From a bacterium (GTDB taxonomy: Bacteria > Campylobacterota > Campylobacteria > Campylobacterales > Sulfurimonadaceae): 48,789 nucleotides of DNA. Position 1 is the first letter of the stretch. The number at the start of each line of letters is the position of its first letter. Shown here piece after piece: positions 1,312 through 45,874 of this stretch. Made by a program: the position numbers and the translations under genes. The stretch is from NCBI GenBank assembly GCA_018822665.1, contig JAHJJX010000013.1, positions 1 to 48,789 on the forward strand, in the 5' to 3' direction. The notes beneath the pieces are model-generated. The model was not told the DNA's origin. It did no database searches and saw only the letters and a list, made by a program, of their open reading frames with translations.

Positions 1312-1341
1312 TGCAACTCCCTATTTTTATGATTAGGGCTC

Positions 1342-1347
1342 ATTTTA
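1342..1347 (-). promoter_or_regulatory. Putative -10 element of aclB
   Basis: On the minus strand TGATAAAATG lies about 30 bp before the aclB start. The TAAAAT hexamer fits a vegetative -10 box. No convincing -35 is visible, which is common in Campylobacterota promoters. Confidence 0.35.
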
Positions 1348-1400
1348 TCACATCTTATCTGATTTATATCCTCTGTTTATGCAAACCTAAGTCGATACTC

Positions 1401-3160: not shown

Positions 3161-3201
3161 CGTTTATCCTAAATTATTATTTCAATAGCAATAGAGATTT
3201 A

Positions 3202-3213
3202 TTCCACATGCCA
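3202..3213 (+). repeat. Dispersed 12-mer TTCCACATGCCA, copy 1 (intergenic)
   Basis: Exact copy in the 71-bp gap between galU and the trpG-like gene, continuing as ...CCAAG. See the findings on the dispersed motif. Confidence 0.8.
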
Positions 3214-3231
3214 AGTATCTCTTTATAAAAT

Positions 3232-4062: not shown

Positions 4063-4129
4063 TTTTATACCTTTAAAATTATTAAGTAGCAAGTATATCG
4101 GTTTTGCTCTTTTATTTTACTTACTGGCA

Positions 4130-4933
4130 TTAACTTTGAATCTGTTTTTGATTTGTCAACTGTTGTAAATAATTTGAAATATTTATGAGCGAAAATGTTA
4201 CTAAAAAAATCATGAGTCCAGGGAAAAAACTAACCCACCATGCAATCTCTACAACATCTTTTCCGCCGCTTAGTATGGTACCCCAACTCATTTGCGGAGC
4301 AACAATGCCAAGACCTAAAAAACTAAGTCCTGATTCTGCCAAAATTGCGCCCCCAACACCAAAAGTAAAACTTACGAAATATATCGGTGCCAAAATAGGT
4401 GCATAATATTTAAATAATATTTTTATTTTACTGACATTTGCTATATTTAAAATTTTTATGTAAGGTTGAGAGGTAATAGTAAAGCTCTCAGAACGAATTA
4501 ATCTAGCCGTTGTCATCCAGCCCGTTATGGATATGATAATAATTAAAACTAAAGAAGAAGCATTCACATAACTCACAAGCGCTAAGAGCAAAAAGAAAGT
4601 TGGAAATGTTAAAAATAAATCTATGATTGCTATGATACTTTTATCGACTCCACCTCTAAAGTATCCAGCCATTGAACCGACCATAAGTCCAACAACAGAA
4701 GCGATAAAAGCACTTCCCACTCCAATAATAAGTGAAACTTTGCCCCCTTCCATCAATCTGGCTAATAAATCCCTGCCCAGTCTATCTGTTCCTAAGAAAT
4801 TCTCTAAAGAGGGAGGCAACAATATGGAGCTGCTATCTAAAGAATATGCATCTACTCCATATATAAAAGAACCAAGAAATGAAAAGACAAAAACAAAAAT
4901 CAGTATTACAATGCTAAAGACGGGCAAATTCAT
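4130..4933 (-). CDS. ABC transporter permease, OppC/DppC type
   Basis: A 267-residue inner-membrane permease with an N-terminal transmembrane helix, the FLGTDRLGRDLLARLMEGG signature of DppC/OppC proteins, about five further transmembrane segments, and the EAA-loop-like SGLSFLGLGI near residue 215. Such proteins pair with a second permease (DppB), ATPases and a periplasmic binding protein for dipeptide, oligopeptide or nickel uptake, none of which is in the window. It starts 24 bp after the flgK stop on the same strand with AAGGC upstream, so it is probably co-transcribed with the flagellar genes. The substrate is unknown. Confidence 0.8.
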   Translation of the reverse strand: MNLPVFSIVILIFVFVFSFLGSFIYGVDAYSLDSSSILLPPSLENFLGTDRLGRDLLARLMEGGKVSLIIGVGSAFIASVVGLMVGSMAGYFRGGVDKSIIAIIDLFLTFPTFFLLLALVSYVNASSLVLIIIISITGWMTTARLIRSESFTITSQPYIKILNIANVSKIKILFKYYAPILAPIYFVSFTFGVGGAILAESGLSFLGLGIVAPQMSWGTILSGGKDVVEIAWWVSFFPGLMIFLVTFSLINISNYLQQLTNQKQIQS

Positions 4934-4957
4934 TAGACAGCCTTGAATGTCTCAACG

Positions 4958-6838
4958 CTATTGTTTGATGCCAAGAAGTGTCTGCATCATTTGATCTATT
5001 GTCGTAATTATTTTTGCTGCGGCGCCATAAGATGTTTGATATTTAATTAAATTAGTCATCTCTTCATCTATGCTCACTTTTGAAACTGAAAAAAATTCCA
5101 ATTCCGTTGCATTATACTGCGTAGATACTGTTTCATTTTTAAGTACGGAAGCGTTGGTCGCAGTACCCACATTCGTAGCGATTGTATCAAACATCCCATA
5201 AGCCGTTGTATTAAAAGTACTATTTCCAATTTTAAAATCAAACTTTTCAAATTGATGCTGAATCATATTAAGAGCAATTGTGTTATCTCCGGCAACCGGA
5301 CTAGAACCTGCACCAATTAATGTTGAATTTGTGCTTAATTCATGATTTAATTTAATATTTTGGGCACTGTCTCCATCAAAAAATCTATTAAGCCCAAGCG
5401 CACCTGCAAAATTAGAACCTGACCCAAAGGTAGCATCTTTAAGCACGTCTTCTATAGCAAAAGTATAGCCTTTAGATTCTGACAAAGGATCCATTGCCAG
5501 CTCCAGAGCCTTATTTCCGTTGGGGTAAGTTGCCCAATTAAAATTGATAAAATCATCTATATCATTATTTGCATTCCCGTCACCGTTATCATCTTTTTGT
5601 GATTTAATTTGACCTTCAATGGAATTTGAACCGATAATCCCTGTCATAGAAGTTGAAACATTTATATCTATTTTTCTTTTCCCTGCAACATTTCCATCAA
5701 TATCATAAACAATTATATTAAAAGAACCCTCTTTTACATTAAGCGCTGAATTAACAAGAGAATTTTCCGGATTCAATTCTAAAACATTCGAGTTTATTCT
5801 CGTTGTTGCATTAGAAGCATAAACATTATTTGTCGATTCGATAAGACCTTTTGCGAATCCGTTAAACTGTGTTATTACATTTTGAATAATACCGTTTGTC
5901 GGCATTCCGCTTGTAGTATCGAGAGATGAGCCCCTGAGATTGAGTATGGAACCGATTCTACCGCCATTAATTTTTTCGGCCATAGGAATAAGGGTACCGT
6001 CTTGTCTCTCGTAAGAAACTTCATAAAAACCAACTTTATTATTCTCTTTAGATACATGTACAGGATGATAAGTTCCCCCATCTACTATGTTAAAGCCATT
6101 CACGCTAATTGTATAGCTTCCCGATCTCGTATTGGAAGAGCTATCAATTTTAATATCAGATTGTAAATTTTCAGAACTTACTTCAGCACCTATAAGCATT
6201 GCAAGACTTTTTTCTATAAAATTTCTTTTGTCTCTTAAATCATTTGCACTATACAAACCATCCAGTTCCGCAACATCAATAGCCTTATTTAACTCTGCTA
6301 CTTCTTTAATTAAAACATTTACTTCATTAATATTGACAGCCAATTGTTCATTGAGCTGAGCTTGCAAAGATGCTACTTTATTTTGTGAATAAGAAATATG
6401 CTGAGACAAAACATCCGTTTGTTTAGCTAAAGCCAATTTAATTGAACTATTCTCTGGGTTATCGGCAAATGTTTGCCACATGTTGTAATACTCTTGCAAA
6501 TCTGCTTTAATGCCGACATTCTCTATTTCGGGGAAATATGTTGAGAGTTCTTCAAGTGTTTTTTTTTCAAAATCACTGTATTCTTTATCGGATGAAATTT
6601 TCGCATATCTTTCATAAACAAAATTATCAAAAACTCTTTTTATCTCCAATATTTGCACACCGTTGCCGACTTGCCCCGGCATTGACGAAATAGGTGTTGC
6701 AGCAGCAGTCATCACTCTTTGTCTTGTATAGCCGTCACTCTCCGCATTGGCGATATTGTGACCGGTAGTCTCAATACCCACCTGAGCAACACTTAGAGCT
6801 GAATATCCGATATTAAGTGAATTAAATATTGATGCCAT
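4958..6838 (-). CDS. flgK: Flagellar hook-associated protein 1
   Basis: A 626-residue HAP1 that forms the junction between hook and filament and is exported by the flagellar type III apparatus. The N-terminus (SLNIGYSALSVAQVGIETTG, then HNIANAESDGYTRQRV) carries the rod/hook signature, and the C-terminus (EEMTNLIKYQTSYGAAAKII, then TTIDQMMQTLL) is the paired coiled-coil D0 segment. The central region, roughly residues 200-560, is variable as usual. It starts 1 bp after the flgN-like stop, consistent with chaperone-substrate coupling. Confidence 0.92.
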   Translation of the reverse strand: MASIFNSLNIGYSALSVAQVGIETTGHNIANAESDGYTRQRVMTAAATPISSMPGQVGNGVQILEIKRVFDNFVYERYAKISSDKEYSDFEKKTLEELSTYFPEIENVGIKADLQEYYNMWQTFADNPENSSIKLALAKQTDVLSQHISYSQNKVASLQAQLNEQLAVNINEVNVLIKEVAELNKAIDVAELDGLYSANDLRDKRNFIEKSLAMLIGAEVSSENLQSDIKIDSSSNTRSGSYTISVNGFNIVDGGTYHPVHVSKENNKVGFYEVSYERQDGTLIPMAEKINGGRIGSILNLRGSSLDTTSGMPTNGIIQNVITQFNGFAKGLIESTNNVYASNATTRINSNVLELNPENSLVNSALNVKEGSFNIIVYDIDGNVAGKRKIDINVSTSMTGIIGSNSIEGQIKSQKDDNGDGNANNDIDDFINFNWATYPNGNKALELAMDPLSESKGYTFAIEDVLKDATFGSGSNFAGALGLNRFFDGDSAQNIKLNHELSTNSTLIGAGSSPVAGDNTIALNMIQHQFEKFDFKIGNSTFNTTAYGMFDTIATNVGTATNASVLKNETVSTQYNATELEFFSVSKVSIDEEMTNLIKYQTSYGAAAKIITTIDQMMQTLLGIKQ

Positions 6839-9960: not shown

Positions 9961-10677
9961 CTATCCTTGTAAATGATAACCGATACTATATCGCAAATCT
10001 TCATCTAAATCCAAAATATTCTCTAACATCCAGTGCAAATAGCCCCTGTCGTTCATCGCGATATCTTCTATATATCTGCCTATATATTTCCCAAATAACA
10101 ATTTTTGAAGCAGAACATTTTTAAAACTAAGTTCCACCATCTCTTCTTTGCCTGCAATTTGCAAAAGATTCTCATATAAAAGTTTTACTATAAAAGCATC
10201 ACTCAGAGCATGATGAGACACAAGTTCATTTTTGATTCCACATGCCAAAGCCTTCTCTTTTTCATTCTTATACAGTTTTAACTCATATCTCAAAAACTGT
10301 AAAGAAAACTGCTCACATTCAGGAATAAGGTGTTTGGTTACTCTGAGTGTGTCGACAATTTCACCTCTCCACTGCATTCCACATGCCAGAAGTTTTTCTA
10401 AATCAAATTTTATATTATGCGCTATAAGCGTTGTACCCTGCTTATTGTGCTCTTGTAAAAATTGATACGCCCTGCTCTGTTTTATATTTGCTTTATTTAA
10501 GAGCATCTCATTTGTTATATGGTGGATGCTTGAAGCTTTTGGTGAAATCTTTTTACCCTCATTAACGAGGTCGTACAAAGTTGTAATCTTTTGATTATCC
10601 AGCACAATAAAGCCAATGGAGCAGATTTTATCTTCGGCCTCCAAACCGGTTGTTTCCAAATCAAGAAAAATCAGCAT
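9961..10677 (-). CDS. DnaQ-like 3'-5' exonuclease (DEDDh)
   Basis: A 238-residue RNase T/DnaQ-fold exonuclease. All catalytic residues are visible: D6 and E8 in FLDLETTGL, D92 in NIKFD, H155 and D160 in HHALSDA. This is the DEDDh arrangement of DNA polymerase III epsilon-like proofreaders and related nucleases. It is too short for a DinG or UvrC fusion. The last ~70 residues are an unrecognised helical extension. It could be a proofreading subunit or a stand-alone repair exonuclease. It carries two copies of the dispersed motif, both decoding as ACG(I/M). It overlaps the upstream membrane gene by 7 bp. Confidence 0.85.
   Translation of the reverse strand: MLIFLDLETTGLEAEDKICSIGFIVLDNQKITTLYDLVNEGKKISPKASSIHHITNEMLLNKANIKQSRAYQFLQEHNKQGTTLIAHNIKFDLEKLLACGMQWRGEIVDTLRVTKHLIPECEQFSLQFLRYELKLYKNEKEKALACGIKNELVSHHALSDAFIVKLLYENLLQIAGKEEMVELSFKNVLLQKLLFGKYIGRYIEDIAMNDRGYLHWMLENILDLDEDLRYSIGYHLQG
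10236..10247 (+). repeat. Dispersed 12-mer TTCCACATGCCA, copy 2
   Basis: Exact copy inside the exonuclease gene; on the coding strand it reads as part of LACGIK (residues 144-149). Confidence 0.8.
10377..10388 (+). repeat. Dispersed 12-mer TTCCACATGCCA, copy 3
   Basis: Exact copy inside the exonuclease gene, about 140 bp from copy 2; on the coding strand it reads as part of LACGMQ (residues 97-102). Confidence 0.8.
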
Positions 10678-11210
10678 TGCACTACCTTTACTTTTTTACA
10701 TCGTGAACCCAATAAAATAAATGAAAAATAACCGCTTATTAAGATAAAAGAAAAGAGCCAGTAAATATCAAACCACTCAAACACACCCTCATAGGAGGTA
10801 AACAATGATGTAAAAGTTAAAGAGAGAATCATCAGAGCTCCGACAAGCCAAATGATAAGCATAAACCATTTTCTCCAAACTTTTACCAAATCACCGTATC
10901 CTATCGTTTGTATTGTATGAGCACTTCCACATGCCGTAAGTTTTAATGTATATCCTGCAATACAATTGTTAAAAATATATTTCAATCCTCTAAATAAGGA
11001 AATTAAAAGGGTAACACTCCAGGCGATTGGAAACCAAAATCTAAAAATATCCAAAAGTGCTTTCAATATTTCAATATTTAAACTTGCTGCACCCTGATTC
11101 ATATACAAAAAAAGAGTTACAAGCAAAGAGATTCCACATGCCAGCAAAATACTGCATACGGTGAGTCTCACAGCCCATCGAAGCCATAATAAAAAGTAAA
11201 ATTTATACAT
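10671..11210 (-). CDS. Membrane protein of unknown function, four predicted TM segments
   Basis: About 179 residues from ATG 11210, with four hydrophobic segments (MYKFYFLLWLRWAV plus VCSILLACGISLLVTLFLYM, FRFWFPIAWSVTLLISLF, MLIIWLVGALMILSLTFTSL, IYWLFSFILISGYFSFILLG) and a basic C-terminus. An upstream in-frame ATG at 11252 would lie well inside the preceding gene; 11210 gives an 8-bp overlap typical of this cluster. I do not recognise a family. The TIQTIGYGDLVKVW loop contains a TxGYGD string as in potassium-channel filters, but the helix spacing and overall size give no other support for a channel. Two copies of the dispersed motif lie inside the gene. Confidence 0.6.
   Translation of the reverse strand: MYKFYFLLWLRWAVRLTVCSILLACGISLLVTLFLYMNQGAASLNIEILKALLDIFRFWFPIAWSVTLLISLFRGLKYIFNNCIAGYTLKLTACGSAHTIQTIGYGDLVKVWRKWFMLIIWLVGALMILSLTFTSLFTSYEGVFEWFDIYWLFSFILISGYFSFILLGSRCKKVKVVQC
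10925..10936 (+). repeat. Dispersed motif TTCCACATGCCG, copy 4
   Basis: Matches the 9-bp core with the last base G; lies within the membrane-protein gene, decoding as TACGSA. Confidence 0.75.
11132..11143 (+). repeat. Dispersed 12-mer TTCCACATGCCA, copy 5
   Basis: Exact copy within the membrane-protein gene, decoding as LACGIS inside the second half of the first hydrophobic region. Confidence 0.8.
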
Positions 11211-14397: not shown

Positions 14398-14402
14398 TCA
14401 AC
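14382..14402. promoter_or_regulatory. HAIR-like HspR operator upstream of cbpA
   Basis: GTTGAGT-GGATGTC-AATCAAC has the TTGA-N11-TCAA skeleton and N7 spacing of the HspR-associated inverted repeat CTTGAGT-N7-ACTCAAG, with 11 of 14 arm positions matching. It covers the -35 and part of the spacer, as expected for a repressor site. Confidence 0.65.
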
Positions 14403-14441
14403 TCTTGGCATGTGGAAATAAATTCCCACATGCCAAGAGTT
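14400..14441. terminator. Inverted pair of the dispersed motif: hairpin after purH
   Basis: A perfect 16-bp inverted repeat (14400-14415 with 14426-14441, 10-nt loop) formed by copies 6 (minus, 14406-14417, exact 12-mer) and 7 (plus, CCACATGCCA at 14426-14435). It lies 12 bp downstream of the purH stop, so it probably ends purH transcription, but no T-run follows on either strand. The left edge abuts the cbpA operator. Confidence 0.7.
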
Positions 14442-17084: not shown

Positions 17085-17096
17085 TTCCACATGCCA
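17085..17096 (+). repeat. Dispersed 12-mer TTCCACATGCCA, copy 8 (intergenic)
   Basis: Exact single copy in the 122-bp convergent gap between pfkA and the chemoreceptor gene. A weak partial inverse (GGTGGAA, 17068-17074) lies upstream. Confidence 0.8.
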
Positions 17097-22995: not shown

Positions 22996-23520
22996 TTAAT
23001 GGAAAGAAAAGTCGGTTTTCGTGCGAATATTTTTCTTTAATGAAAAAATATTTTTATAATAAATCTCTAAAATTTCATACTCTTTTTTAGCAAGTGGAAG
23101 CTTGATTTTAAACGCATCGGACACCTCTTTTCCTAACATAACCTTCGCCAAAGGAGAGTGAATGGAAATAAGTCCATTTTCCGGTTCGGATTCTAAAACT
23201 CCACAAAGAGTATATATCTCCTCTTCATCCGTGTCGAGATTCAGTATTTTAACACTGCTACCAAAACGAACTCTTTCATGCGGAAACTGTGAAGGGTCTA
23301 TAATTTGTGATTTTTGGATCATTGCATTAAGATAAAAAAGCCTTTTGTCTATAAAGCGGAGTTTTTCTTTCGCTGCATGATAATCTGCATTTTCGCTTCT
23401 ATCGCCCTGAGCAGCTGCAACCAATTTTTCATGAGCAACTTCAGGTTTTTCCACTTCTAGCAAGAATCTAAATTCTTCAACTAAAAGGTCATAACCCTCT
23501 ATGCTCATAGGCTCTTTCAA
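22996..23520 (-). CDS. greA: Transcription elongation factor GreA
   Basis: A 174-residue GreA, which enters the RNA polymerase secondary channel and stimulates transcript cleavage. The coiled-coil tip AQGDRSENADYHAAKEK contains the acidic pair D..E. The C-terminal FKBP-like domain has the ISIHSPLAKVMLGKEVSD signature. The best start is the TTG at 23520, with AAGG upstream, because the family N-terminus is xEPMSxxGY; ATG 23508 would drop the conserved EP. A basic tail of about 20 residues (KKNIRTKTDFSFH) extends past the usual end. Confidence 0.88.
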   Translation of the reverse strand: MKEPMSIEGYDLLVEEFRFLLEVEKPEVAHEKLVAAAQGDRSENADYHAAKEKLRFIDKRLFYLNAMIQKSQIIDPSQFPHERVRFGSSVKILNLDTDEEEIYTLCGVLESEPENGLISIHSPLAKVMLGKEVSDAFKIKLPLAKKEYEILEIYYKNIFSLKKNIRTKTDFSFH

Positions 23521-23529
23521 TTCAAGGCC

Positions 23530-23856
23530 TTAATGGTTAAACCCTATGATGTAATATGTTTCTTTATTTTCTAATTTTCTCACCGTCACTTTATACTTAT
23601 CGCTAAAATGTTGAATTTTTTCATGTGCTTCTACTGCAATCTCCGGACTTGGAGCTTCTATTTTTATTTTAAAACAATCATTTGTATTAGACAGCGCTAC
23701 AAAAGAGCCGTCAACTCTGAGCGCATCATGCAAATCCATAATATGCTTTTGGATTTTTTCGTACCCCTGCGTATTTTTCTCTATCTTCTCCAACTGCTTG
23801 ATTAAAGCGTCATTTGGCGCATATCCGAGCTGTGTCAGCATTGCATCTCTTTGCAT
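23530..23856 (-). CDS. Protein of unknown function
   Basis: A 108-residue soluble protein beginning MQRDAMLTQLGYAPNDALIK. ATG 23856 has AAGGAATA upstream; a longer reading from 23934 would cross the promoter of the divergent HDOD gene. An N-terminal helix is followed by an apparent small alpha/beta domain (FKIKIEAPSPEIAVEAHEKI and VTVRKLENKETYYIIGF). I do not recognise it. It lies 9 bp ahead of greA on the same strand, so they probably share a transcript. Confidence 0.6.
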   Translation of the reverse strand: MQRDAMLTQLGYAPNDALIKQLEKIEKNTQGYEKIQKHIMDLHDALRVDGSFVALSNTNDCFKIKIEAPSPEIAVEAHEKIQHFSDKYKVTVRKLENKETYYIIGFNH

Positions 23857-23934
23857 ATTATTCCTTATAATAGATTTTCCAAAAAATAATAACACTTTTT
23901 TGTAAATATTCAGTATTAATTTATGTGCATGCAC

Positions 23935-23940
23935 TATAAT
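23935..23940 (+). promoter_or_regulatory. Putative -10 element of the HDOD gene
   Basis: TATAAT 32 bp before the HDOD start codon in the divergent gap; no clear -35. Confidence 0.45.
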
Positions 23941-23972
23941 TATAGAAAAAAAGATACTAAAAAGAGAGTGCT

Positions 23973-24773
23973 ATGACTGAAGAGATACTAAAACAGATTA
24001 AACAACTTCCCCCGCTTCCGGAATCTGCTATGCAAATTGAGGCAGTTTATCAGAATCCAAACAGCAGCTTTAATGATATGGTTAAAATTTTAGAAAAAGA
24101 TCCTCTTTTAACTGCGGATATATTAAAAGCCGCGAATTCTCCGCTTTACGGCTTTAGTCGTGAAATTAATGCCATTAGTCAGGCTGTCGGTTTATTTGGC
24201 ATGGGAACAGTGAGAGGTTTTGCACTAGCGTCCATTGTTAAAAAAAGCTTTTCACTCGATTTATCTCCCTATGGAATCAATAATGATATGTTCTCCGCAT
24301 TGTCTAAAAAACAGCACGGATTGATGACTGCTTGGTGCTTAAGAAAAGAGAATAAGCTTCTGGGAGTACTTTCTCCGGCAGCTTTTTTAGTTGAGATTGG
24401 GAAAGTACTTATTTCTCAACAAATTATGGCAGAAAAAAAACAGGATGTTTTTCGCGATGCCCTTAAAGATCTTCAAGACGTGGAAGAAGCTGAGAGAAAA
24501 ATCGTTGGCACAAACACACCTGAAGTAAGTGCGAGAATCTTTGAACATTGGAGATTTGAATCGTCACTTGTGGATGTTATCAAACATTGTCAAGAACCTC
24601 AAAATGCAGAACCTCAAAATCAAAGAGCAGCAAGTATTTTACACGTTGTTCGTGTTGCTGTTCCTATAAACGGCGTCATCACTGATCAAAGCATAAAAGA
24701 AGCGAAAGAGCTCATCGCTCGATACTCCCTTGATCTTGAAAGCTTTGAAAAAGCTTTAGAAAACGCTAGATAA
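23973..24773 (+). CDS. HDOD-domain protein
   Basis: A 266-residue cytoplasmic protein made of one HDOD domain, an HD-superfamily fold usually without the catalytic HD residues. The opening QIKQLPPLPESAMQIEAVYQ is the classical HDOD start, followed by ILEKDPLLTADILKAANSPL, YGFSREINAISQAVGLFG and the HDOD core around EIGKVLISQQI. HDOD proteins act in signalling and stress regulation rather than hydrolysis. A short EPQNAEPQNQ tandem occurs near residue 209. It lies just upstream of RNase R and holA on the same strand, with 7 bp to the RNase R start. Confidence 0.88.
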   Translation: MTEEILKQIKQLPPLPESAMQIEAVYQNPNSSFNDMVKILEKDPLLTADILKAANSPLYGFSREINAISQAVGLFGMGTVRGFALASIVKKSFSLDLSPYGINNDMFSALSKKQHGLMTAWCLRKENKLLGVLSPAAFLVEIGKVLISQQIMAEKKQDVFRDALKDLQDVEEAERKIVGTNTPEVSARIFEHWRFESSLVDVIKHCQEPQNAEPQNQRAASILHVVRVAVPINGVITDQSIKEAKELIARYSLDLESFEKALENAR

Positions 24774-24780
24774 CGTCCTT

Positions 24781-26727
24781 TTGAAATCTTTACTTATTCA
24801 TCTCACTCTTGGTCTTTGTGACCAAGATATCACCGCTGAAGATATGGTTTATATTAATAATTGGATGGCAAAAAAATACCTAACCAAAAATGGCACCATT
24901 TATAAATTTAATTCCAAGTACCGTGCCGGGACTTTGGGTTTAGTTCAAAAGAATACAGCGTACCTGAATGTTATAGGTGAAAATGTTAGGGATTTATTTA
25001 TTGGCGAGGGTGATTTGGGAAGTGCTAAAGAGGGTGATCTCATCATTGCCCAAAGGCTTTTAGGCGTAAGAGGAACTCCAAGTGCAAAAGTTGTAGAAAT
25101 TGTAGGACGTGCCATAAGCTACAGCGTTGCTTATGTTGTTCAAAAAGATTCTATGAAATCTTTGCTGGATTTAAAAACAGACTATCCCATCGGGGTGGAA
25201 ATAGACAAAGAAAGTTTCGACGCTTACAAAAACGGCGATGTATTCAAAATAGACAACCAAAATAATGTCATCATGGAAAAACTTGGAAATCTTCAAGACC
25301 CTCTTGTGGATGAAAAAATTGTTCTTGCACAATTTAACAAACATGATGAATTCAGTGAAGAAGTTTTACAAATTGCCACATCTTTTGAGTCGGTGGATGC
25401 TTCTAAGCACCCGCATCGTGTTGATTTAAGAAATTTGCCTTTTTGTACCATTGACCCCGTCACTGCTAAAGATTTCGATGACGCTATTTACTGGGATGAT
25501 ACAAATACAACTTTATATGTAGCCATAGCAGATGTAAGCGAGTACGTCACCCCCTTTGGTGCCATCGATAATGAAGCGATATACAGAAGTTTTTCTATCT
25601 ATCTTCCTCATCGCTCCATTCCCATGCTTCCTCGTCAACTAAGTGAAACTCTGTGCTCACTCCAAGCAAACGTTGACAGACTCTCCTATGTTTTTGAGAT
25701 GAAACTGGACATGGATGCTTTAGAAGTGAGTAAATCTAAAGTGTATGAAGCAATAATTCATTCTCAAAGAAGATTTAACTATGAAGAGATAGATGAGTTT
25801 TTTGAAGGAAAATTAAAAGCTAAAAACAGCAGTGAAGAGATAATTTTCAAATATATCAAAAAGTTACGCATCGTAACAGATGCCCTCAAAAGAAAAAGGT
25901 TAAAAGTAGGTTATGATTTTCGCTCCAATGAACTGGAAATGTTCATAGATGAAAATTCAAATCTCACACATACAACCTATGCGCAAGAAACCCCTTCGCA
26001 CGCGCTTATTGAAGACTGTATGCTTTTAGCGAATAAAGAAGCGGCGGCCAGATTTGACAGAGGGATATTCAGAATACATGAACCGCCGAGTCAGGTAAAA
26101 CTGCAGATTTTGTATCAGGAACTCGCCGGAATTGGTATGTTTATAGATATAAAAAATTCTATTAAAGAAACCATTTCAGACATACAAAGACAAGCAAAAG
26201 AGATGGGGCTTGAATCAGAGGTGGATACTTTGATTATCCGTTCACAGATGCAAGCGAGATATTCACCGCTGAACGCAGGTCACTTTGGTCTTGGTTTTGA
26301 AGCATACACACACTTCACTTCACCGATTCGTAGATATTCCGACTTGATAGTACACCGTCTTTTAAAGGCTATAAACAACAACGATACGCTTGAAGGCTCT
26401 TATGTTCTAAGAAATATAGAAGCACTCAGCATGAGCGTAAGTGAAAAAGAAAGAGAAGCAAGCACTATAGAAGTTGAATTTATGGCCAGAAAATTTGCCA
26501 GATGGGCTGTGTTAAACATGGACAAAGAGCTCAAAGCGCGCATTAGTGCAACGGAACCTGAAGTAAGAGCGGAACTGCATGATGAAATTATGGGAGCAAA
26601 ATTTTACATAACTTCAGACAGCAATGTCGTTCTTTTTGAAGACGTAGTCGTTCAAATAGAGCGTGTTGATATAGCAAAAGCTAAAATATTTGCAAGAGTA
26701 TTAAGAAAACAAAGTGATGAAGCATAG
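24781..26727 (+). CDS. rnr: Ribonuclease R / VacB-type exoribonuclease
   Basis: A 648-residue RNase II/R-family 3'-5' exoribonuclease. An N-terminal cold-shock-like region is followed by the RNB catalytic domain with TIDPVTAKDFDDAIYWDD (metal Asp residues) and DVSEYVTPFGAIDNEAIYRS, then HFGLGFEAYTHFTSPIRRYS near residue 520. The C-terminus (ISATEPEVRAELHDEI onward) is a short, divergent S1-like region. The start appears to be TTG at 24781 without a good RBS, or ATG at 24844; the former fits the family N-terminus better. Followed directly by holA, as in other Campylobacterota. Confidence 0.9.
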   Translation: MKSLLIHLTLGLCDQDITAEDMVYINNWMAKKYLTKNGTIYKFNSKYRAGTLGLVQKNTAYLNVIGENVRDLFIGEGDLGSAKEGDLIIAQRLLGVRGTPSAKVVEIVGRAISYSVAYVVQKDSMKSLLDLKTDYPIGVEIDKESFDAYKNGDVFKIDNQNNVIMEKLGNLQDPLVDEKIVLAQFNKHDEFSEEVLQIATSFESVDASKHPHRVDLRNLPFCTIDPVTAKDFDDAIYWDDTNTTLYVAIADVSEYVTPFGAIDNEAIYRSFSIYLPHRSIPMLPRQLSETLCSLQANVDRLSYVFEMKLDMDALEVSKSKVYEAIIHSQRRFNYEEIDEFFEGKLKAKNSSEEIIFKYIKKLRIVTDALKRKRLKVGYDFRSNELEMFIDENSNLTHTTYAQETPSHALIEDCMLLANKEAAARFDRGIFRIHEPPSQVKLQILYQELAGIGMFIDIKNSIKETISDIQRQAKEMGLESEVDTLIIRSQMQARYSPLNAGHFGLGFEAYTHFTSPIRRYSDLIVHRLLKAINNNDTLEGSYVLRNIEALSMSVSEKEREASTIEVEFMARKFARWAVLNMDKELKARISATEPEVRAELHDEIMGAKFYITSDSNVVLFEDVVVQIERVDIAKAKIFARVLRKQSDEA

Positions 26728-27689
26728 TGTATAAAAGCGAATTAGATAAACATATACAAAACTCTAGTTTATCCAATAGCTTTGTTCTATTTGGGGAAAG
26801 CAGTTTTCTCATAGATAGATATACAAAGCTCTTGAGTAATATTGCAGATACCTCTGCCCTTCTTTTTTACCATGATGAGTATAACTACAATAGCGCAAAA
26901 GCGCATTTGTCACAAGCTTCACTTTTTGGAGACAGAAGTGTCCTTGTTATAAAAAGTGAGAAAAAAGTTGCCAAAAATGAACTTGATATCCTTATAGATT
27001 TATGCCAAAAAAACAAAGACAATGTTTTTGTTTATGCGTATTACGGAAGCGATCATAAAACTTATGCCAATGCATTTGCAAAAAAAAATACAATGAGTGT
27101 CAGATTTTTTCATCCGAACCATCATGATGCTCTGGGTATCATTCTCCAAGAAGCACAAGATAAAAATGTTAAAATAGATAAATATTCAATAACGCATCTC
27201 TTAAATATACACAACGGAGATGTAGCCCTCTCTTGCAATGAGATAGATAAATTTAGAGTATATGACAAAGAGATTACAACAAAAGATATTGACAATCTTG
27301 TTTTTGGATTAGCAGAAATAAATATAGAAGACCTTATAAAAAAGATTCTTCACAAAAAAGATTTTAAGAGTGACTTACATAATATTTTAGAGCACGCTGA
27401 AGATGAGATAAGAGTAGTAACAGCTCTTACGACTTATCTTACACAACTGTATATGTTTAATATCTATATAAGAGTCAATGGCACTGCAAACGCTTTGGAA
27501 ATTTTGGGATACCCAGCTCCAAAGTTTGTCGTAGATGAGAAAGCGGCATTGTCACTCAAATTCAAACCCCATACGTATTATAAACTTCACGAGCTGCTTT
27601 TGGATGCCGAGTTGAAAATGAAATCTTCAGGCATAGACAAATACTCTATTTTAATTTCTACACTTATCCGAGCTCAAAAACTTTTATAA
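26727..27689 (+). CDS. holA: DNA polymerase III subunit delta
   Basis: A 320-residue delta subunit of the clamp loader, which opens the sliding clamp. It is divergent in sequence but has the typical layout: FVLFGESSFLIDRYTKLL, DRSVLVIKSEKK, then KYSITHLLNIHNGDVALSCN and NEIDK. The C-terminal helical domain ends near SILISTLIRAQKLL. The start is a GTG that overlaps the rnr stop by one base (TAGTG). In C. jejuni rnr is followed by holA and then rpsF-ssb-rpsR; those three are not here. Its 3' end carries the perfect dispersed-motif hairpin. Confidence 0.82.
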   Translation: MYKSELDKHIQNSSLSNSFVLFGESSFLIDRYTKLLSNIADTSALLFYHDEYNYNSAKAHLSQASLFGDRSVLVIKSEKKVAKNELDILIDLCQKNKDNVFVYAYYGSDHKTYANAFAKKNTMSVRFFHPNHHDALGIILQEAQDKNVKIDKYSITHLLNIHNGDVALSCNEIDKFRVYDKEITTKDIDNLVFGLAEINIEDLIKKILHKKDFKSDLHNILEHAEDEIRVVTALTTYLTQLYMFNIYIRVNGTANALEILGYPAPKFVVDEKAALSLKFKPHTYYKLHELLLDAELKMKSSGIDKYSILISTLIRAQKLL

Positions 27690-27714
27690 CAAAACACATA
27701 ACATACTTCAAAGA

Positions 27715-27748
27715 TGCTTGGCATGTGGAACTTTCCACATGCCAAGCA
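27715..27748. terminator. Inverted pair of the dispersed motif: hairpin between convergent genes
   Basis: A perfect 16-bp inverted repeat (27715-27730 with 27733-27748, 2-nt spacer) made of two exact 12-mers, copies 9 (minus, 27719-27730) and 10 (plus, 27733-27744), extended by AAGC/GCTT and one more A-T pair. It lies between holA and the convergent DUF350 gene, a natural bidirectional terminator position, but neither side has a T-run. Confidence 0.75.
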
Positions 27749-27778
27749 AATTACAATGAAAAGTGTTCACTCTAAGAA

Positions 27779-28183
27779 CTAATAACTCATTGAGCCTGCA
27801 TTGAGAAGTCCTATGCAAACTGATAAAAATGCCATTAAAATTCCAACTGAAACTGCTCCTTTTTCAATCTGTTTTTCAAATGAAAACTTCACATTGATAC
27901 GGATTATTATAAAAGCAAAAAGCAATTGAATACCCATTGCAACACAAGCCCAAATCAAAAAATCAATATATGAAACTGAGCTCACAAGCGCACTGTAAAG
28001 GGGAATACAAAGACCCAGTATTGCGCCGCCAAAGCCAATAGCCGCAGCTGTATTATTTTCTTGGAAAATAAGTTTATAATCATCGTATGGAGTTACTAAA
28101 GCATACAGATACAGAAATAAACCAACAATAAGCATTGCGCTTAAGAAAAAAAGTCCGAAAGATAGAAACGAGTTTATAAACAT
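27779..28183 (-). CDS. DUF350 family inner-membrane protein
   Basis: A 134-residue protein with four transmembrane segments (about residues 5-27, 44-64, 70-92, 107-128). Its TAAAIGFGGAILGLCIPLYS stretch fits the DUF350 (YjfL) family, whose function is unknown. No catalytic residues. ATG lies after AAAGGA. It converges on holA with the motif hairpin between; it stands alone, with ilvC beginning more than 1 kb upstream of it on the same strand. Confidence 0.75.
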   Translation of the reverse strand: MFINSFLSFGLFFLSAMLIVGLFLYLYALVTPYDDYKLIFQENNTAAAIGFGGAILGLCIPLYSALVSSVSYIDFLIWACVAMGIQLLFAFIIIRINVKFSFEKQIEKGAVSVGILMAFLSVCIGLLNAGSMSY

Positions 28184-28297
28184 GAAAATCCTTTGGTGGA
28201 ATCATATCTAAGAAATATTAATGCTTTGAAAAAAATGACATAAAATTGAAAAAGTAAAAAATTTTATAAGGGAAATAACGAAGAAGCATATCGATGG

Positions 28298-28338
28298 AGA
28301 GCACAAGGGGAGGTGCACGCAAAAACGTGCATTGCTCT
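28298..28338 (-). terminator. Hairpin after ilvC
   Basis: Nested inverted repeats: outer AGAGCA/TGCTCT and inner TGCACG/CGTGCA around a CAAAAA loop, 1-41 bp past the ilvC stop. Likely ilvC terminator, though no U-tract follows. Confidence 0.45.
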
Positions 28339-28339
28339 T

Positions 28340-29386
<1,047 letters not shown>

Positions 29387-29410
29387 TCAAAGGCTCAAAA
29401 ATTTTGTGGC

Positions 29411-29416
29411 ATTATA
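29411..29416 (-). promoter_or_regulatory. Putative -10 element of ilvC
   Basis: TATAAT on the minus strand (GAGTATAATGCC), about 50 bp before ilvC. The left arm of the nearby dyad lies just upstream in its spacer region. Confidence 0.45.
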
Positions 29417-29422
29417 CTCAAT

Positions 29423-29460
29423 TAAAGTATAAACTTTTATTAGTCCAAGCTTATACTTTA
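29423..29460. promoter_or_regulatory. Ten-bp inverted repeat in the divergent ilvC promoter region
   Basis: TAAAGTATAA and TTATACTTTA form a perfect 10-bp dyad with an 18-bp spacer. It lies upstream of the ilvC -10 and of the plus-strand gene at 29522, a position suited to an operator for either gene. Confidence 0.45.
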
Positions 29461-29492
29461 TTAAAAAATTTTTCATTTAATATCAGAGTATG

Positions 29493-29498
29493 TATAAT
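29493..29498 (+). promoter_or_regulatory. Putative -10 element of the gene at 29522
   Basis: TATAAT 24 bp before the start codon, in the ATGTATAATATC context. Confidence 0.45.
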
Positions 29499-29521
29499 AT
29501 CAAAAAAATTACGAGGTTACT

Positions 29522-30172
29522 ATGAAAAAGTTCAATCTATTTAAAGAGATAATTGTTGTCTCTAAGTCTTCTTTACTCCAAGCAATAAATTCATCAAAAC
29601 AATTTGGTATTACGCTAAGAGGAGAGATAAAACACGAGCCTTTTTCTGATAATGATATTTTAATTTATCAAGGAGTTCCTGCCAGCCAGCCTACAAATGC
29701 CCTCATGCCAAGCAGCAGACCATCACTGCAGGCTCTGCTTGGGAAAAACTATCAAATTGTTGAAGACGATGATAGAGTTTTAATCAAAGCATTTTCCAAC
29801 TGGCAGGCAATTATAGGTTTTAATACACCAAGAGCTTCTTATGATGACACAACAGGTGACGGTGTTGCGGAGTTTGCTTCTAAAGATCTTGAAGATATTG
29901 GCTGGAATGCTACAGAGTTCAATATCTCTTATAGAAGCTTAGTGGATGTACTTGAAGAAAACTGCGAAGGAACTTTAATATGCATTGAGCAAGAAGAGCC
30001 GTATCAGTTTAGCGGACTCGGATTTTTAAGCGATAATCCACATGCCAAAAAAGTACTCTTAGAGTATTGTCAAAATACTATCAAAGAGCTTATTGAGACG
30101 GATGATGACTATAAAAGAGAAAACTTAACCGATGATGAGATTGAAGCTACAGAATTCTTTCAATTGTCCTAA
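29522..30172 (+). CDS. Protein of unknown function, cytoplasmic
   Basis: A 216-residue soluble, acidic protein starting MKKFNLFKEIIVVSKSSLLQ (GAGG upstream). I do not recognise it. It has a stretch FGITLRGEIKHEPFSDNDIL, a possible polar loop TNALMPSSRPSLQAL, and an acidic C-terminus (ETDDDYKRENLTDDEIEATE). No signal peptide, membrane segment or catalytic motif. It is followed 9 bp later by the NYN-like gene, so the two form a unit. One copy of the dispersed motif decodes as NPHAK near residue 175. Confidence 0.6.
   Translation: MKKFNLFKEIIVVSKSSLLQAINSSKQFGITLRGEIKHEPFSDNDILIYQGVPASQPTNALMPSSRPSLQALLGKNYQIVEDDDRVLIKAFSNWQAIIGFNTPRASYDDTTGDGVAEFASKDLEDIGWNATEFNISYRSLVDVLEENCEGTLICIEQEEPYQFSGLGFLSDNPHAKKVLLEYCQNTIKELIETDDDYKRENLTDDEIEATEFFQLS
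30036..30047 (+). repeat. Dispersed motif ATCCACATGCCA, copy 11
   Basis: Full 9-bp core, first base A. Inside the unknown gene, read as N-P-H-A-K. Confidence 0.7.
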
Positions 30173-31360: not shown

Positions 31361-32698
31361 CTATTTACCTAAACAAAAAGAGCCAAACATTTTGTCAAGC
31401 ATCTCATCATTTTCAAAAGGTCTTGTAATAGAAGCCATCTCTTTAACTGCTTCATTGAGATGAAAAGAAAAAATTTCAAGCTCTTGTGATTCCAAGGGCT
31501 CAAACGCTTCATCAATATTATCTAAGGTATTCTCAACGGCAGAAATCTGTCTTTGAGATATCAGCATTATTTCATCTGAAATATTGCTTGTGTCCATAAT
31601 GTTTTTTAGAATTTCAACCAATGCATTCACGCTTTGTTTAGAATTTATTTCTATATCAAATTGTATTTCCACATGCCGGAATTTTGGCTCTAAATCTATC
31701 TTATTTTTTACATAGACAAGGTGTTTATCTCTTGCATGTGATGCTATCAAAGATAATATCTGCATATCTTCACCATCTGCTTCTCGGCTTGAATCAAACA
31801 ATGCAACTACGATGTCACTCTGATCTATTGCTTCAAGCGAACGCTCGATTCCGATGCGTTCAATTTCATCATTTGCCTCACGTATGCCGGCGGTGTCAAC
31901 TATGCGAATTAAATGGGTGCCGATTTTCACCTGCTCTTCTATGGTATCTCTAGTAGTTCCAGCAATTGGACTCACTATGGCACGGTTATAATGGAGAAGC
32001 GCGTTAAGCAAAGAACTTTTACCGACATTTGGTTTGCCTACTATGGCTACTTTAAACCCTTGCATCAGTCCTTCTCTTTCCCTGCTTGCTCTAAGAGTTG
32101 CTTGAAGTGATTTTTTAAGTTCCGTGAGTTTTGCTTGTATTTGCAACACTAAATCTTCTGGTAAATCCTCTTCCGCATAATCAATACTCACCTCTGAATA
32201 AGCAAGTATATGAATAATTTCATCCCGAATATTTTCTATGAATTCTTTTAGTTCGCCTTTCATTTGACGGGCAAGTATTTTAGCGGCATCTTCACTTTTT
32301 GCTTCAATGAGTTGTGCAATCGCTTCTGCTTCACTTAAATCAATCCGTCCATTAAAGAAAGCTCTTTTACTAAATTCTCCGGCATTAGCGAGTCTAGCCC
32401 CTGCTTTAAGAGTAGCTTTTAATATACTCTGTGCAACTATAAAACCGCCGTGACACTGTATCTCCACTACGTCTTCAGCAGTGAAAGAAAAAGGAGCATT
32501 AAAATAGATAACGATTGCTTCATCTATGAGTTGATTCTCTTGATTATATATATTGGTTAAAGTTGCGTATCTTGGGGAAAAATCTTTGTTATTTGTAAGC
32601 TGTTTTACTATTTGGAGTGCTCTAGTGCCACTTATTCTTATGATAGCGATAGAGCCTATACCATTGGCTGTCGCAATAGCGGAAATTGTATCATTCAT
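31361..32698 (-). CDS. mnmE: tRNA uridine-5-carboxymethylaminomethyl modification GTPase
   Basis: A 445-residue MnmE, which with MnmG modifies U34 of tRNA. The N-terminal tetrahydrofolate-binding domain (ISAIATANGIGSIAIIRISG) precedes the G domain with G1 GKPNVGKSSLLNALL, G2/G3 around AGTTRDT and VDTAGIREA, and G4-like KNKID. The C-terminus ends FCLGK, the catalytic C(I/L)GK motif. Directly upstream is jag and directly downstream ruvX. One dispersed-motif copy decodes as RHVE near residue 345. Confidence 0.97.
   Translation of the reverse strand: MNDTISAIATANGIGSIAIIRISGTRALQIVKQLTNNKDFSPRYATLTNIYNQENQLIDEAIVIYFNAPFSFTAEDVVEIQCHGGFIVAQSILKATLKAGARLANAGEFSKRAFFNGRIDLSEAEAIAQLIEAKSEDAAKILARQMKGELKEFIENIRDEIIHILAYSEVSIDYAEEDLPEDLVLQIQAKLTELKKSLQATLRASREREGLMQGFKVAIVGKPNVGKSSLLNALLHYNRAIVSPIAGTTRDTIEEQVKIGTHLIRIVDTAGIREANDEIERIGIERSLEAIDQSDIVVALFDSSREADGEDMQILSLIASHARDKHLVYVKNKIDLEPKFRHVEIQFDIEINSKQSVNALVEILKNIMDTSNISDEIMLISQRQISAVENTLDNIDEAFEPLESQELEIFSFHLNEAVKEMASITRPFENDEMLDKMFGSFCLGK
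31667..31678 (+). repeat. Dispersed motif TTCCACATGCCG, copy 12
   Basis: Full 9-bp core, last base G. Within mnmE; the coding strand reads CGG CAT GTG GAA (RHVE), a different frame from the ACG copies. Confidence 0.75.
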
Positions 32699-32700
32699 CT

Positions 32701-33702
32701 CTAGTTTGCGTGATAATCATTTATAATGATATATTTCATCCCATCTCTTGTAGAGCGAATTGCTACATATTTATCCGGGTATTTGTTACGAAGTTCTTTA
32801 AGGGCAATCTGTACCAAAACCCCGTCAAGTATCTTAGTTTGTGCTCTAGCGTCTCTATTTACACTTTCACAAACACCTACTAAATATCGAGAAACTGATT
32901 CTTCTTGATTTTTCAAAAATTCTGCTATTTCCAAACGAAGCTGAATTTGATATTTAGTATTTATCCAATTAAATATCATATAGGAAAGTGCTTTATATCT
33001 GTAGCCTTCTTTTCCAATTAAAAGAGCAGCATCTTCACCATTGAATTCTATAAGTAAAGTATTCTCATCATACACACTTACTTCAATTTCATCAATATTA
33101 AAACATGTCAAATCAAAAAGTACATTTATCTCTTTCTTCACATCTTTTGCAATGTCTGAAATGGATTGTTTTATTTGAGAATATTCTTCATCATCATAAA
33201 AATCATCCTCATACGTTGACATATAGTTTGTTATCTCTTCTGCCAATTCGTATTCTTCATCATCTTGCGTGCTAACGAACGACTGAGGCATAATAGTATC
33301 GTTAAATATTGTATGATGATTTTCGCTAGGAGTTTCTACTTCTTTTTTAAAAATTTCTTTTTTTATCTCTTGCTTTACTTCTCTTGCAGCTTCTTTTTTT
33401 ATCTCTTGCCTTACTTCTCTAACAGTTTCTTTTTTTATCTCTTTCTTTTCTTCTCTAACAGTTTCTTTTTTTATCTCTACTTTTGGCTCTTGAGGCAAGA
33501 CTTGCTTGCTTTGCTTTATCGGCTGAATTACTTCAGCTTTTTCTATTACCGCAACAATAATTGCACTTTTTTTAAAAAGACCTAAAATACCCTTGCTAGG
33601 ATACTGAATAACTTCAATCTTTAACTGTGTAACAGAACAGTTGAGTGAAGATGCCGCATTTTTATAAGCATCTTCGAGTGTAACAGCCTCAATCTTAATC
33701 AT
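32701..33702 (-). CDS. jag: Jag/KhpB-type RNA-binding protein
   Basis: A 333-residue protein with an N-terminal Jag domain (MIKIEAVTLEDAYKNAASSL, then YPSKGILGLFKKSA), a long K/E/V-rich linker containing 12-residue repeats, and C-terminal KH (LLIEFNGEDAALLIGKEGYR) and R3H (NRDARAQTKILDGVLVQIAL) RNA-binding domains. Family members regulate cell-envelope gene expression and membrane-protein biogenesis. ATG 33702 (AGGACATAAG upstream) lies 8 bp inside the yidC 3' end, so the two are coupled. Standard order yidC-jag-mnmE. Confidence 0.9.
   Translation of the reverse strand: MIKIEAVTLEDAYKNAASSLNCSVTQLKIEVIQYPSKGILGLFKKSAIIVAVIEKAEVIQPIKQSKQVLPQEPKVEIKKETVREEKKEIKKETVREVRQEIKKEAAREVKQEIKKEIFKKEVETPSENHHTIFNDTIMPQSFVSTQDDEEYELAEEITNYMSTYEDDFYDDEEYSQIKQSISDIAKDVKKEINVLFDLTCFNIDEIEVSVYDENTLLIEFNGEDAALLIGKEGYRYKALSYMIFNWINTKYQIQLRLEIAEFLKNQEESVSRYLVGVCESVNRDARAQTKILDGVLVQIALKELRNKYPDKYVAIRSTRDGMKYIIINDYHAN
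33334..33477 (-). repeat. Four tandem 36-bp / 12-residue repeats in Jag
   Basis: Coding units EIKKETVREEKK, EIKKETVREVRQ, EIKKEAAREVKQ and EIKKEIFKKEVE form a charged linker between the Jag and KH domains. The period is 36 bp and the DNA units are similar to each other, so copy number may vary between strains. Confidence 0.75.
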
Positions 33703-39301: not shown

Positions 39302-39313
39302 TTCCACATGCCA
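39302..39313 (+). repeat. Dispersed 12-mer TTCCACATGCCA, copy 13, overlapping a start codon
   Basis: Exact copy whose ATG (39308-39310) is the likely initiation codon of the nitroreductase gene; AAGGA lies immediately upstream (39297-39301). Confidence 0.8.
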
Positions 39314-39993: not shown

Positions 39994-40845
39994 CTATAAA
40001 CCTTTTTTCTTATATCTTGCCAACATGCTTTCATTTCCGGTTATTCCGCCGCTGTGAATATACAGAACTTCTTCATTTGTTTGCTCCAACAAAGACTTCC
40101 ACATGCCGGGGGCATACAGTAAATCAAACTCAATTCCGCCGGCTAAAAGCTTTTTATAAATCTCTAGGAACTCCGAATACGGCTTTGCAAAATGATATTT
40201 TTTACTCGGATTTAAGATAATCAAGTTTTTAGGAATTGGGTGAAGCGCACCCATTTGTTCTCTTAGGTAGCCAACATCCCCCACGCAGGGGGTTGTATAT
40301 ACCTTATATTCCGGTAATGCAAGTGCTAAATAAAGTGCCGTTGTTCCGGTTCCGGAGGGAGTTGCAAGAGACTTTATTTTTAAAGTAGACTCTTTTATCT
40401 CTTTTGCTAAAACTTGTAAACCTTCTTGAGCACTTTTATCTGCTCCGCCTTGGTCTATTATGTAGGATTTTTCATTTAAATTAAATCTTAATGAAGAGAT
40501 AAAACCTTTATAGTTTTTCTCTTCAATTTCCACATGCTGCATACCTAAACAAAGCGCATGAAAATAATTTCCATCCTTTTGCTCTTTTAAAAATATACTT
40601 AATTTTTTTGTATAGTAAATAAACTCCCACCCTTTACTTTTACACATGGCAGCAATTGCCAACATAGCATTAGATTGTGTTCCGCCATAAGAGATTATTC
40701 TGTTATATGTATTATTTGAGGTTTGTAAAAGTGCATAAAGTTTGCGGTATTTGTTTCCCGCTAAAAAAGGATCGATTAAATCATCTCTTTTAACATAGAA
40801 AATTCTCCCATCCAAATTTATTTCAGAAATGGGAGAGTAAATCAT
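39994..40845 (-). CDS. PLP-dependent ACC deaminase / D-cysteine desulfhydrase-like enzyme
   Basis: A 283-residue fold type II PLP enzyme. YVKRDDLIDPFLAGNKYRKL contains the PLP lysine (GNKYRK) and SYGGTQSNAMLAIAAM the substrate-binding loop of the ACC deaminase/DcyD family. A Gly-rich PSGTGTTALYLALALPE phosphate loop follows. The natural substrate could be 1-aminocyclopropane carboxylate, D-cysteine or another amino acid; the sequence does not decide it. The protein is about 40 residues shorter than typical ACC deaminases. One full copy of the dispersed motif and one degenerate copy lie in the gene. Confidence 0.75.
   Translation of the reverse strand: MIYSPISEINLDGRIFYVKRDDLIDPFLAGNKYRKLYALLQTSNNTYNRIISYGGTQSNAMLAIAAMCKSKGWEFIYYTKKLSIFLKEQKDGNYFHALCLGMQHVEIEEKNYKGFISSLRFNLNEKSYIIDQGGADKSAQEGLQVLAKEIKESTLKIKSLATPSGTGTTALYLALALPEYKVYTTPCVGDVGYLREQMGALHPIPKNLIILNPSKKYHFAKPYSEFLEIYKKLLAGGIEFDLLYAPGMWKSLLEQTNEEVLYIHSGGITGNESMLARYKKKGL
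40097..40108 (+). repeat. Dispersed motif TTCCACATGCCG, copy 14
   Basis: Full 9-bp core, last base G; in the PLP-enzyme gene, decoding as PGMWK, a third reading-frame use. Confidence 0.75.
40528..40539 (+). repeat. Degenerate motif copy TTCCACATGCTG
   Basis: One mismatch in the core (CCACATGCT). In the same gene, decoding as QHVEI, so it may be a decayed copy. Confidence 0.45.
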
Positions 40846-44686: not shown

Positions 44687-44698
44687 TGGCATGTGGAA
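44687..44698 (-). repeat. Dispersed 12-mer TTCCACATGCCA, copy 15 (intergenic)
   Basis: Exact copy on the minus strand, in the 31-bp gap between the convergent lipoprotein and cmoA genes, flanked as AAATTCCACATGCCAAGAG-like sequence. A single copy at a terminator position. Confidence 0.8.
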
Positions 44699-45497: not shown

Positions 45498-45842
45498 ATG
45501 AAGTTTGAAACCTCCACTTTAATGATGCTATTTTTTATTATTTTTCTCATTATCAGTATTTGGAAAATCTATGCTTTTCTACCAAATAAACAATTAGCAG
45601 ATGATGATACAACCAATGATTCGCAGCAGCAATTACAAAACTTAATGTTAAACATCATAAAAAAAAGGAACGGTAATATCGATGGGATTGAGTTATTTGA
45701 ACTGATGAAAAATGATAAAGATTTTGATAAAAAGCATTTTTGGAGATTCAATCAAAATAAACTCAATCAATTGCTTGTCCACTACTACATGCAAAATCCA
45801 CATGCCAAGAGTATCGAAGATATTTACAAAAATATTAAGTAG
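45498..45842 (+). CDS. Small membrane-anchored protein of unknown function
   Basis: A 114-residue protein beginning MKFETSTLMMLFFIIFLIIS, one N-terminal transmembrane helix (about residues 8-27), then a soluble helical, Asn/Gln/Lys-rich C-terminus. ATG 45498 is chosen for AAGGAATAAG directly upstream, over an in-frame start at 45432. I recognise no family. The motif copy at 45796 reads as NPHAK near its C-terminus, and a motif hairpin follows its stop by 8 bp. Confidence 0.6.
   Translation: MKFETSTLMMLFFIIFLIISIWKIYAFLPNKQLADDDTTNDSQQQLQNLMLNIIKKRNGNIDGIELFELMKNDKDFDKKHFWRFNQNKLNQLLVHYYMQNPHAKSIEDIYKNIK
45796..45807 (+). repeat. Dispersed motif ATCCACATGCCA, copy 16
   Basis: Full 9-bp core, first base A; followed by AGAGT as at the purH hairpin. 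In the small membrane-protein gene, decoding as NPHAKS. Confidence 0.7.
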
Positions 45843-45848
45843 TGAACC

Positions 45849-45874
45849 GGGCATGTGGAAGTTTCCACATGCCA
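45849..45874. terminator. Inverted pair of the dispersed motif: hairpin between convergent genes
   Basis: GGCATGTGGAA (45850-45860) and TTCCACATGCC (45863-45873) form a perfect 11-bp dyad with a 2-nt spacer, copies 17 (minus) and 18 (plus). It lies between the small membrane-protein stop (45842) and the convergent fba stop (45886). No T-run on either side. Confidence 0.7.

Follow-up and report, generated by a model that had tools for sequence, protein, structure and literature searches.

Short sequence words that mark DNA for uptake are best described in the Neisseriaceae, as the DNA uptake sequence (DUS), and in the Pasteurellaceae, as the USS. In the portions of the two studies drawn on here, uptake signals are ~9–11 nt long, generally occur in at least 1,000 copies and, in Neisseria and Pasteurellaceae, frequently form pairs within terminators (Kingsford 2007, PMC1852404), and Neisseriaceae genomes carry dialects, inverted pairs and 943–5918 copies (Frye 2013, PMC3630211). 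The same portion of the latter study describes the requirement for short uptake sequences as unique to Neisseria species and Pasteurellaceae, and, according to an excerpt of a third paper, the species without a means of biasing uptake include H. pylori and C. jejuni (PMC2734928).

The locus described here belongs to the genus Sulfurimonas (Campylobacterota) and lies in a window of 48,789 nt, by which we mean the whole stretch of DNA analysed. As to the genus, contig C49 of the congener G025 has 1 kb of sequence exactly in common with a contig of Sulfurimonas sp. OB8. Between convergent holA and a DUF350 gene, neighbours that profile matches (NF006302 and PF03994) bear out, an 89-nt gap holds an inverted repeat of two motif copies at 27715–27748 (Table 1). 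Its arms, 27715–27730 (TGCTTGGCATGTGGAA) and 27733–27748 (TTCCACATGCCAAGCA), are 16 nt each and 100% complementary across a 2-nt spacer, just as the original prediction had described them. It had also ranked this pair as the cleanest in the window; among 17 listed inverted pairs with arms at most 60 nt apart it is the sole fully complementary one, the longer I2 pair at 14400–14441 (20-nt arms) being 95% complementary. RNA folding returned a 15-bp stem closed by a 4-nt loop on both strands (z −7.8 and −5.8), and the MFE over an 86-nt stretch, −32 and −33.6 kcal/mol, marks a stable GC-containing hairpin. Within the window the 11-mer core of the arms recurs more often than chance predicts, with 15 exact copies, or 25 when up to two mismatches are allowed (9.75 expected; largest of 100 shuffles, 16).

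Table 1. Motif copies, motif dyads and the genes flanking the central dyad, in window coordinates.
Feature	Position	Strand	Basis or remark
Dyad, two head-to-head motif copies, 2-nt spacer	27715..27748	.	Arm listing, folding
Left-arm motif copy CTTGGCATGTGGAA	27717..27730	+	Motif search
Right-arm motif copy CTTGGCATGTGGAA	27733..27746	-	Motif search
holA, DNA polymerase III delta, convergent neighbour	26727..27689	+	NF006302 (E 1.6e-116), TIGR01128
DUF350 gene, other convergent neighbour	27779..28183	-	PF03994
Second motif dyad; exact copy 14407-14417, one-mismatch partner 14424-14434	14400..14441	.	Between two minus-strand ORFs
Third motif dyad, two exact copies	45850..45873	.	43-nt convergent gap, ORFs ending 45842 and 45886
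Single exact copy GGCATGTGGAA	3202..3212	-	Motif search
Single exact copy	10236..10246	-	Motif search
Single exact copy	10377..10387	-	Motif search
Single exact copy	10925..10935	-	Motif search
Single exact copy	11132..11142	-	Motif search
Single exact copy	17085..17095	-	Motif search
Copy, last letter changed (GGCATGTGGAT)	30036..30046	-	Core 9-mer kept at orthologous place in G180, not G150
Single exact copy	31667..31677	-	Absent at G150 orthologous place; overlapping opposite-strand copy in G180
Single exact copy	39302..39312	-	Motif search
Single exact copy	40097..40107	-	Core 9-mer kept at orthologous place in G180
Copy, first letter changed (AGCATGTGGAA)	40528..40538	-	Motif search
Single exact copy	44688..44698	+	Motif search
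Copy, last letter changed (GGCATGTGGAT)	45796..45806	-	Core 9-mer kept at orthologous place in G180

Each arm is one copy of a repeat, consensus yTTGGCATGTGGAA, that is scattered through the genome. Its genomic signature suggests a DUS-like repeat, and this genome-wide aspect was the main point that the original prediction did not include. In the 2.5-Mb genome that carries the window (G000), the 11-mer GGCATGTGGAA occurs 662 times, 328 and 334 times on the two strands, compared with a single occurrence of the reversed control, and the 14-mer CTTGGCATGTGGAA occurs 160 times compared with none. When sampled stretches of this genome were scanned for over-represented k-mers without prior guidance, the motif ranked first; a 400-kb k-mer scan of the motif-poor relative G150 yielded no comparable over-represented word. 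Individual copies were characterized in a 449-kb sample (20 stretches plus the window) containing 143 of them, with mechanical ORF calls. Because the 20 stretches were picked partly where copies had already been listed, sampled densities are biased upward, a bias that the genome-wide counts do not share. Conservation across the 143 copies is confined to the core and three letters on its 5′ side (mostly C, T and T); the other 57 flanking positions examined carry at most 0.15 bits of information each, and conservation ends at ~14 bp. Single-letter variants of the 11-mer number 1 in total across the six inner positions C-A-T-G-T-G, and the outer letters do vary, above all G9 and A11.

Most sampled copies (95 of 143) lie inside ORFs, 52 in sense and 43 in antisense orientation. 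The remaining 48 lie in gaps, where copy density in the sampled stretches is ~7-fold higher (1.55 versus 0.23 per kb). Convergent gaps hold 25 copies in 3.9 kb, tandem gaps 19 in 17.3 kb and divergent gaps 3 in 6.9 kb, with one copy unplaced (convergent versus divergent, p = 8 × 10−9), and 14 of the 25 convergent-gap copies sit in pairs. Opposite-strand GGCATGTGG pairs within 25 nt number 10 and same-strand pairs 6, compared in each case with a simulated mean of 0.95 and a maximum of 6; pairs occur in both polarities. The named loci L031–L041 contain no copy.

That 25 of 48 intergenic copies fall into convergent gaps, with 14 of the 25 paired, would suit dyads selected primarily as transcription terminators, with single copies as their remnants. 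So would the very stable hairpins and one pair, L125:4065–4088, in which 10 T lie within 12 nt past the stem on one strand. This pair is, however, one of the 10 examined in G000, and over 28 pairs in three sets the 12-nt tails exceed the background T content only slightly (4.35 versus 3.83 T per tail in the 10 G000 pairs, 4.23 versus 3.51 in 13 pairs of the relative G180, and 4.40 versus 3.64 in 5 others). At 27715–27748 itself, for which a bidirectional intrinsic terminator had been proposed, neither strand carries a U-tract after the stem (tails AATTACAATGAA and TCTTTGAAGTAT) and a terminator scan of 27500–28250 returned 0 sites, so that this proposal is not supported at this site. An Rfam search of 26000–30000 at the gathering threshold matched no known RNA family. 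The dyad is absent from the 220 nt scanned after holA in each of the 29 relatives with the best HolA matches. Three of them, the motif-rich G180, G192 and G161, carry one copy in that stretch, and in six of the 29 the convergent DUF350 gene lies 3–12 nt from the end of the HolA alignment without a hairpin.

Thus, in the absence of a U-tract and of conservation, the terminator reading of 27715–27748 is unproven. The slight T enrichment beside pairs and the empty scan led us to reject termination as the primary function, and with two thirds of copies in ORFs, and genes of relatives meeting without a hairpin, we regard it as highly improbable. In our reading the dyad results from motif copies accumulating where the sequence tolerates them, and it may have been co-opted to end transcripts. 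The original prediction was to fall if the dyad were missing from every close relative and the genome-wide motif count were at chance; the first proved true (0 of 29), whereas the count, 662 against 1, is far from chance.

How copies arise was assessed at orthologous places, defined by best tblastn matches of G000 ORFs in sampled stretches of relatives (60% identity, 70% coverage). In motif-rich G180 (mean identity 80%), 31 motif sites comprised 27 aligned without gaps, 1 with a gap and 3 at edges. An identical 9-mer was found at 19 of the 27 places, compared with 485 of 4503 random control 9-mers (10.8%; Fisher p = 5 × 10−13); an earlier, looser version of this comparison had 8 of 13 kept. 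Near the 8 copies lost in G180, a search for a shifted copy found one case, on the opposite strand. In motif-poor G150 (79% identity), 10 of 11 sites aligned ungapped and 1 gapped, and 0 of the 10 were identical. Amino acid identity in this comparison was 0.49 in motif codons versus 0.76 in their flanks, indicating that the motif goes with protein changes. A third relative, G036, gave 10 aligned sites and 1 at an edge; one site was identical, and CATGTGG was kept at 5 of the 10, the identical one included. Gaps affect 1 of 28 non-edge motif sites in G180 and 1 of 11 in G150. The alignments indicate that copies arise by substitution in place, not by insertion.

REP/REPIN elements, which have a RAYT transposase, are short, dispersed and able to form hairpins by pairing. 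The Sulfurimonas repeat resembles them in its dispersed copies and palindrome-forming pairs in gaps, and one Y1_Tnp (PF01797) match in G000 would also fit a REP/REPIN-like or MITE-like selfish element spread by a transposase. Unlike these elements, it has no body beyond 14 bp, conservation stopping at the motif, and it lies mostly in genes: the two thirds of sampled copies inside ORFs nearly always show no insertion relative to relatives. Nor is a Y1 transposase consistently present, motif-rich G180, G191, G192 and G239 giving no Y1_Tnp match. We rejected a mobile origin on the substitution origin, the 14-bp limit and the lack of a consistent RAYT/Y1 partner, and give it the slimmest of chances.

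The repeat could also be a binding site for a chromosome-organizing or recombination protein (Chi, KOPS or a nucleoid factor), selected at each place. The high copy number and the positions conserved in G180 are consistent with this, as is the even spread of 3–12 sites per 20-kb stretch, counted in the twenty stretches partly chosen at listed copies. Chi and KOPS are strand-biased, however, whereas the motif has no strand preference, either in its genome-wide counts (328 versus 334) or within ORFs (52 copies in sense and 43 in antisense orientation), and its orientation in the sampled stretches is unrelated to GC skew, taken as a stand-in for replichore (Spearman 0.07, p = 0.77). With ~11–14 informative bases it is also long for sites of these kinds, and 16 of 135 genus genomes are motif-rich and others are near chance. 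The missing strand bias led us to reject a Chi/KOPS-type site, and a protein-binding site of any such kind seems unlikely.

Turning to the distribution of the motif, we called genomes motif-rich if they contained at least 200 copies of the 8-mer CATGTGGA and more than 5 times the control. By this definition, 16 of 135 genus genomes and 0 of 93 genomes from 17 other genera of the family are motif-rich, and among 397 genomes drawn from the class, those outside the genus hold at most 5 copies of GGCATGTGGAA each. Mapped onto a 54-genome HolA tree, the motif-rich state of the 16 requires 5 changes, and 8 of 500 shuffles need as few; the 16 thus form a few clades rather than one, on a tree that represents one gene and has some weak forks. 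Ten further genomes of this tree hold 83–153 copies of CATGTGGA. For the 11-mer TGGCATGTGGA, seven of these drop to 1–5 copies and the others have 9 (G147), 50 (G162) and 66 (G185), and with such low counts none was considered motif-rich.

G036 is one clear dialect case, with 115 copies of TAGCATGTGGA and 38 of TGGCATGTGGA, compared with 14 and 263 in its relative G184 and 5 and 249 in G182. Decay was measured by counting one-mismatch copies, subtracting a baseline of 44.6 taken from 14 motif-poor genomes, and dividing by the number of exact copies. This ratio is 0.33–1.44 in the eleven genomes with more than 200 exact copies. The other 8 of the 19 genomes have fewer than 100 exact copies, with ratios of 3.49 (G240), 3.50 (G195), 3.34 (G239), 2.38 (G147), 2.16 (G234), 1.83 (G162), 1.46 (G185) and 5.41 (the dialect genome G036). 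The lower the exact count, the higher this ratio becomes, in part simply from the way it is defined.

The genome that carries the window encodes a near full-length ComEC (C24:16988–18250; query 1–421 of 422, open frame of 423 aa). ComEC matches were found in 123 of 135 genus genomes (78 of 79 good ones), and PilT matches in 133 of 135, again including our genome. Because both are near-universal, yet 16 of 135 genomes are motif-rich, having the machinery is not in itself enough to predict the motif, and we rejected the presence of ComEC or PilT as a predictor. Among genomes with fewer than 100 exact copies, G240, although 99% complete, has no ComEC match. G195 has comEC in two pieces ~8 kb apart (C15:14716–15270 and 23331–24107), as if the gene were interrupted by an insertion. 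Near full-length ComEC is nevertheless present in G239, G147, G234, G162 and G036; the matches in G168 and G185 are cut by contig starts, and the incomplete assemblies of G182 and G187 gave none. With ComEC retained in decayed genomes, and with G240 and G195 belonging to one clade, a link between ComEC and motif decay is weak, a lead from two genomes. A regular expression for type IV prepilin signals, run on sampled stretches only, gave one unconvincing match in G180 and none in G000.

We compared the repeat with the described uptake sequences, whose genomic traits it shares, though not their sequence. Like these, it is an over-represented exact word with conservation confined to the word, it is present on both strands and in genes and gaps, and it originates by point mutation, is shared between related species, forms inverted pairs at gene ends and has dialects (one clear case). 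Competence genes are present too, a weak criterion given that ComEC and PilT are near-universal in the genus. Neisseriaceae DUS, in the part of PMC3630211 used here, are likewise short exact words of very high copy number in core genes and gaps, with inverted pairs tied to gene ends and related dialects around a constant core. The Sulfurimonas motif differs in being found in another phylum and patchily inside one genus, and its copy counts are below most of those given for Neisseriaceae in that part (943–5918). Its core, GCATGTGG, is unrelated by eye to GCCGTCTGAA, the Neisseria sequence given in the consulted portion of PMC1852404. In the same portions of both studies, Pasteurellaceae USS are present in great numbers, often pair up as inverted copies within terminator hairpins and come in two sequence versions across the family, to all of which the Sulfurimonas repeat can be likened. 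It is unlike them in sequence, again by eye, matching neither AAGTGCGGT nor ACAAGCGGT, and the T-rich tails of terminators are only weakly present at its pairs.

On this evidence, yTTGGCATGTGGAA probably serves a Sulfurimonas lineage as a DNA uptake sequence. The competence machine would have a DNA receptor, presumably a minor pilin of type IV pilus-like kind, with a preference for extracellular DNA bearing the motif; in Neisseria the receptor is the minor pilin ComP (in the parts of the sources used here), whereas the Sulfurimonas receptor is putative. ComEC would bring the DNA in, and recombination would then replace homologous alleles. Because motif-bearing alleles would be taken up more often, this drive would spread mutations that create the motif and restore mutated copies, and the genome would fill with copies at every place that tolerates them, convergent gaps in particular. 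Head-to-head pairs such as 27715–27748 would form strong hairpins that may serve as the 3′ ends of both transcripts.

We also think it likely that Campylobacterota harbour a third, independently evolved system of self-DNA uptake sequences, with its own sequence and dialects and probably its own receptor, gained or lost repeatedly within one genus and decaying where the machinery is lost. Among the matches listed in the open PMC literature, we found no report of a DNA uptake sequence for Sulfurimonas or Campylobacterota. Matches listed there for natural transformation with Sulfurimonas contained nothing on an uptake motif, and those listed for the words GGCATGTGGAA or TTCCACATGCC look unrelated. 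An Aliarcobacter paper mentions uptake signals in its references only (PMC8308473), a paper on spaced motifs makes no mention of Sulfurimonas (PMC5217627), and one on ComN makes none of Campylobacter or Helicobacter (PMC12616744). If true, a third origin in an environmental Campylobacterota genus would show that sequence-tagged self-uptake evolves repeatedly. Sulfurimonas would offer a natural experiment in the emergence and loss of uptake tags: its 135 genomes, with the tag dense, decaying or absent, would make the order of events (receptor, motif, uptake loss, decay) testable. The DUS reading also predicts that Sulfurimonas is naturally transformable and that the motif could be put to practical use as a tag in genetic tools for this genus.

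Several minor repeat features were seen alongside. Five same-strand motif copies stand in tandem at L130:9077–9160 (contig C20 of G000, ~449077–449160), spaced ~18–19 nt apart and near an ORF that resembles nifH by eye; similar tandem copies, with a spacing of 16–18 nt, occur in G161:C42 and G162:C13. In the sampled stretches of G000 (L111–L130), the next most over-represented words are of the GACACTGACAC, GACACAGACAC and GACAATGAC type, which perhaps belong to a repetitive protein gene. A stretch like AAAACTAAAAGAGTGATG...CAAGG...GAGGAAGC follows holA in several relatives (L153, L157, L159, L162, L168 and L178–L180) and is perhaps another dispersed repeat or element. Within the window, positions 33354–33478 comprise a 36-bp tandem repeat of 3.5 copies with 91% matches.
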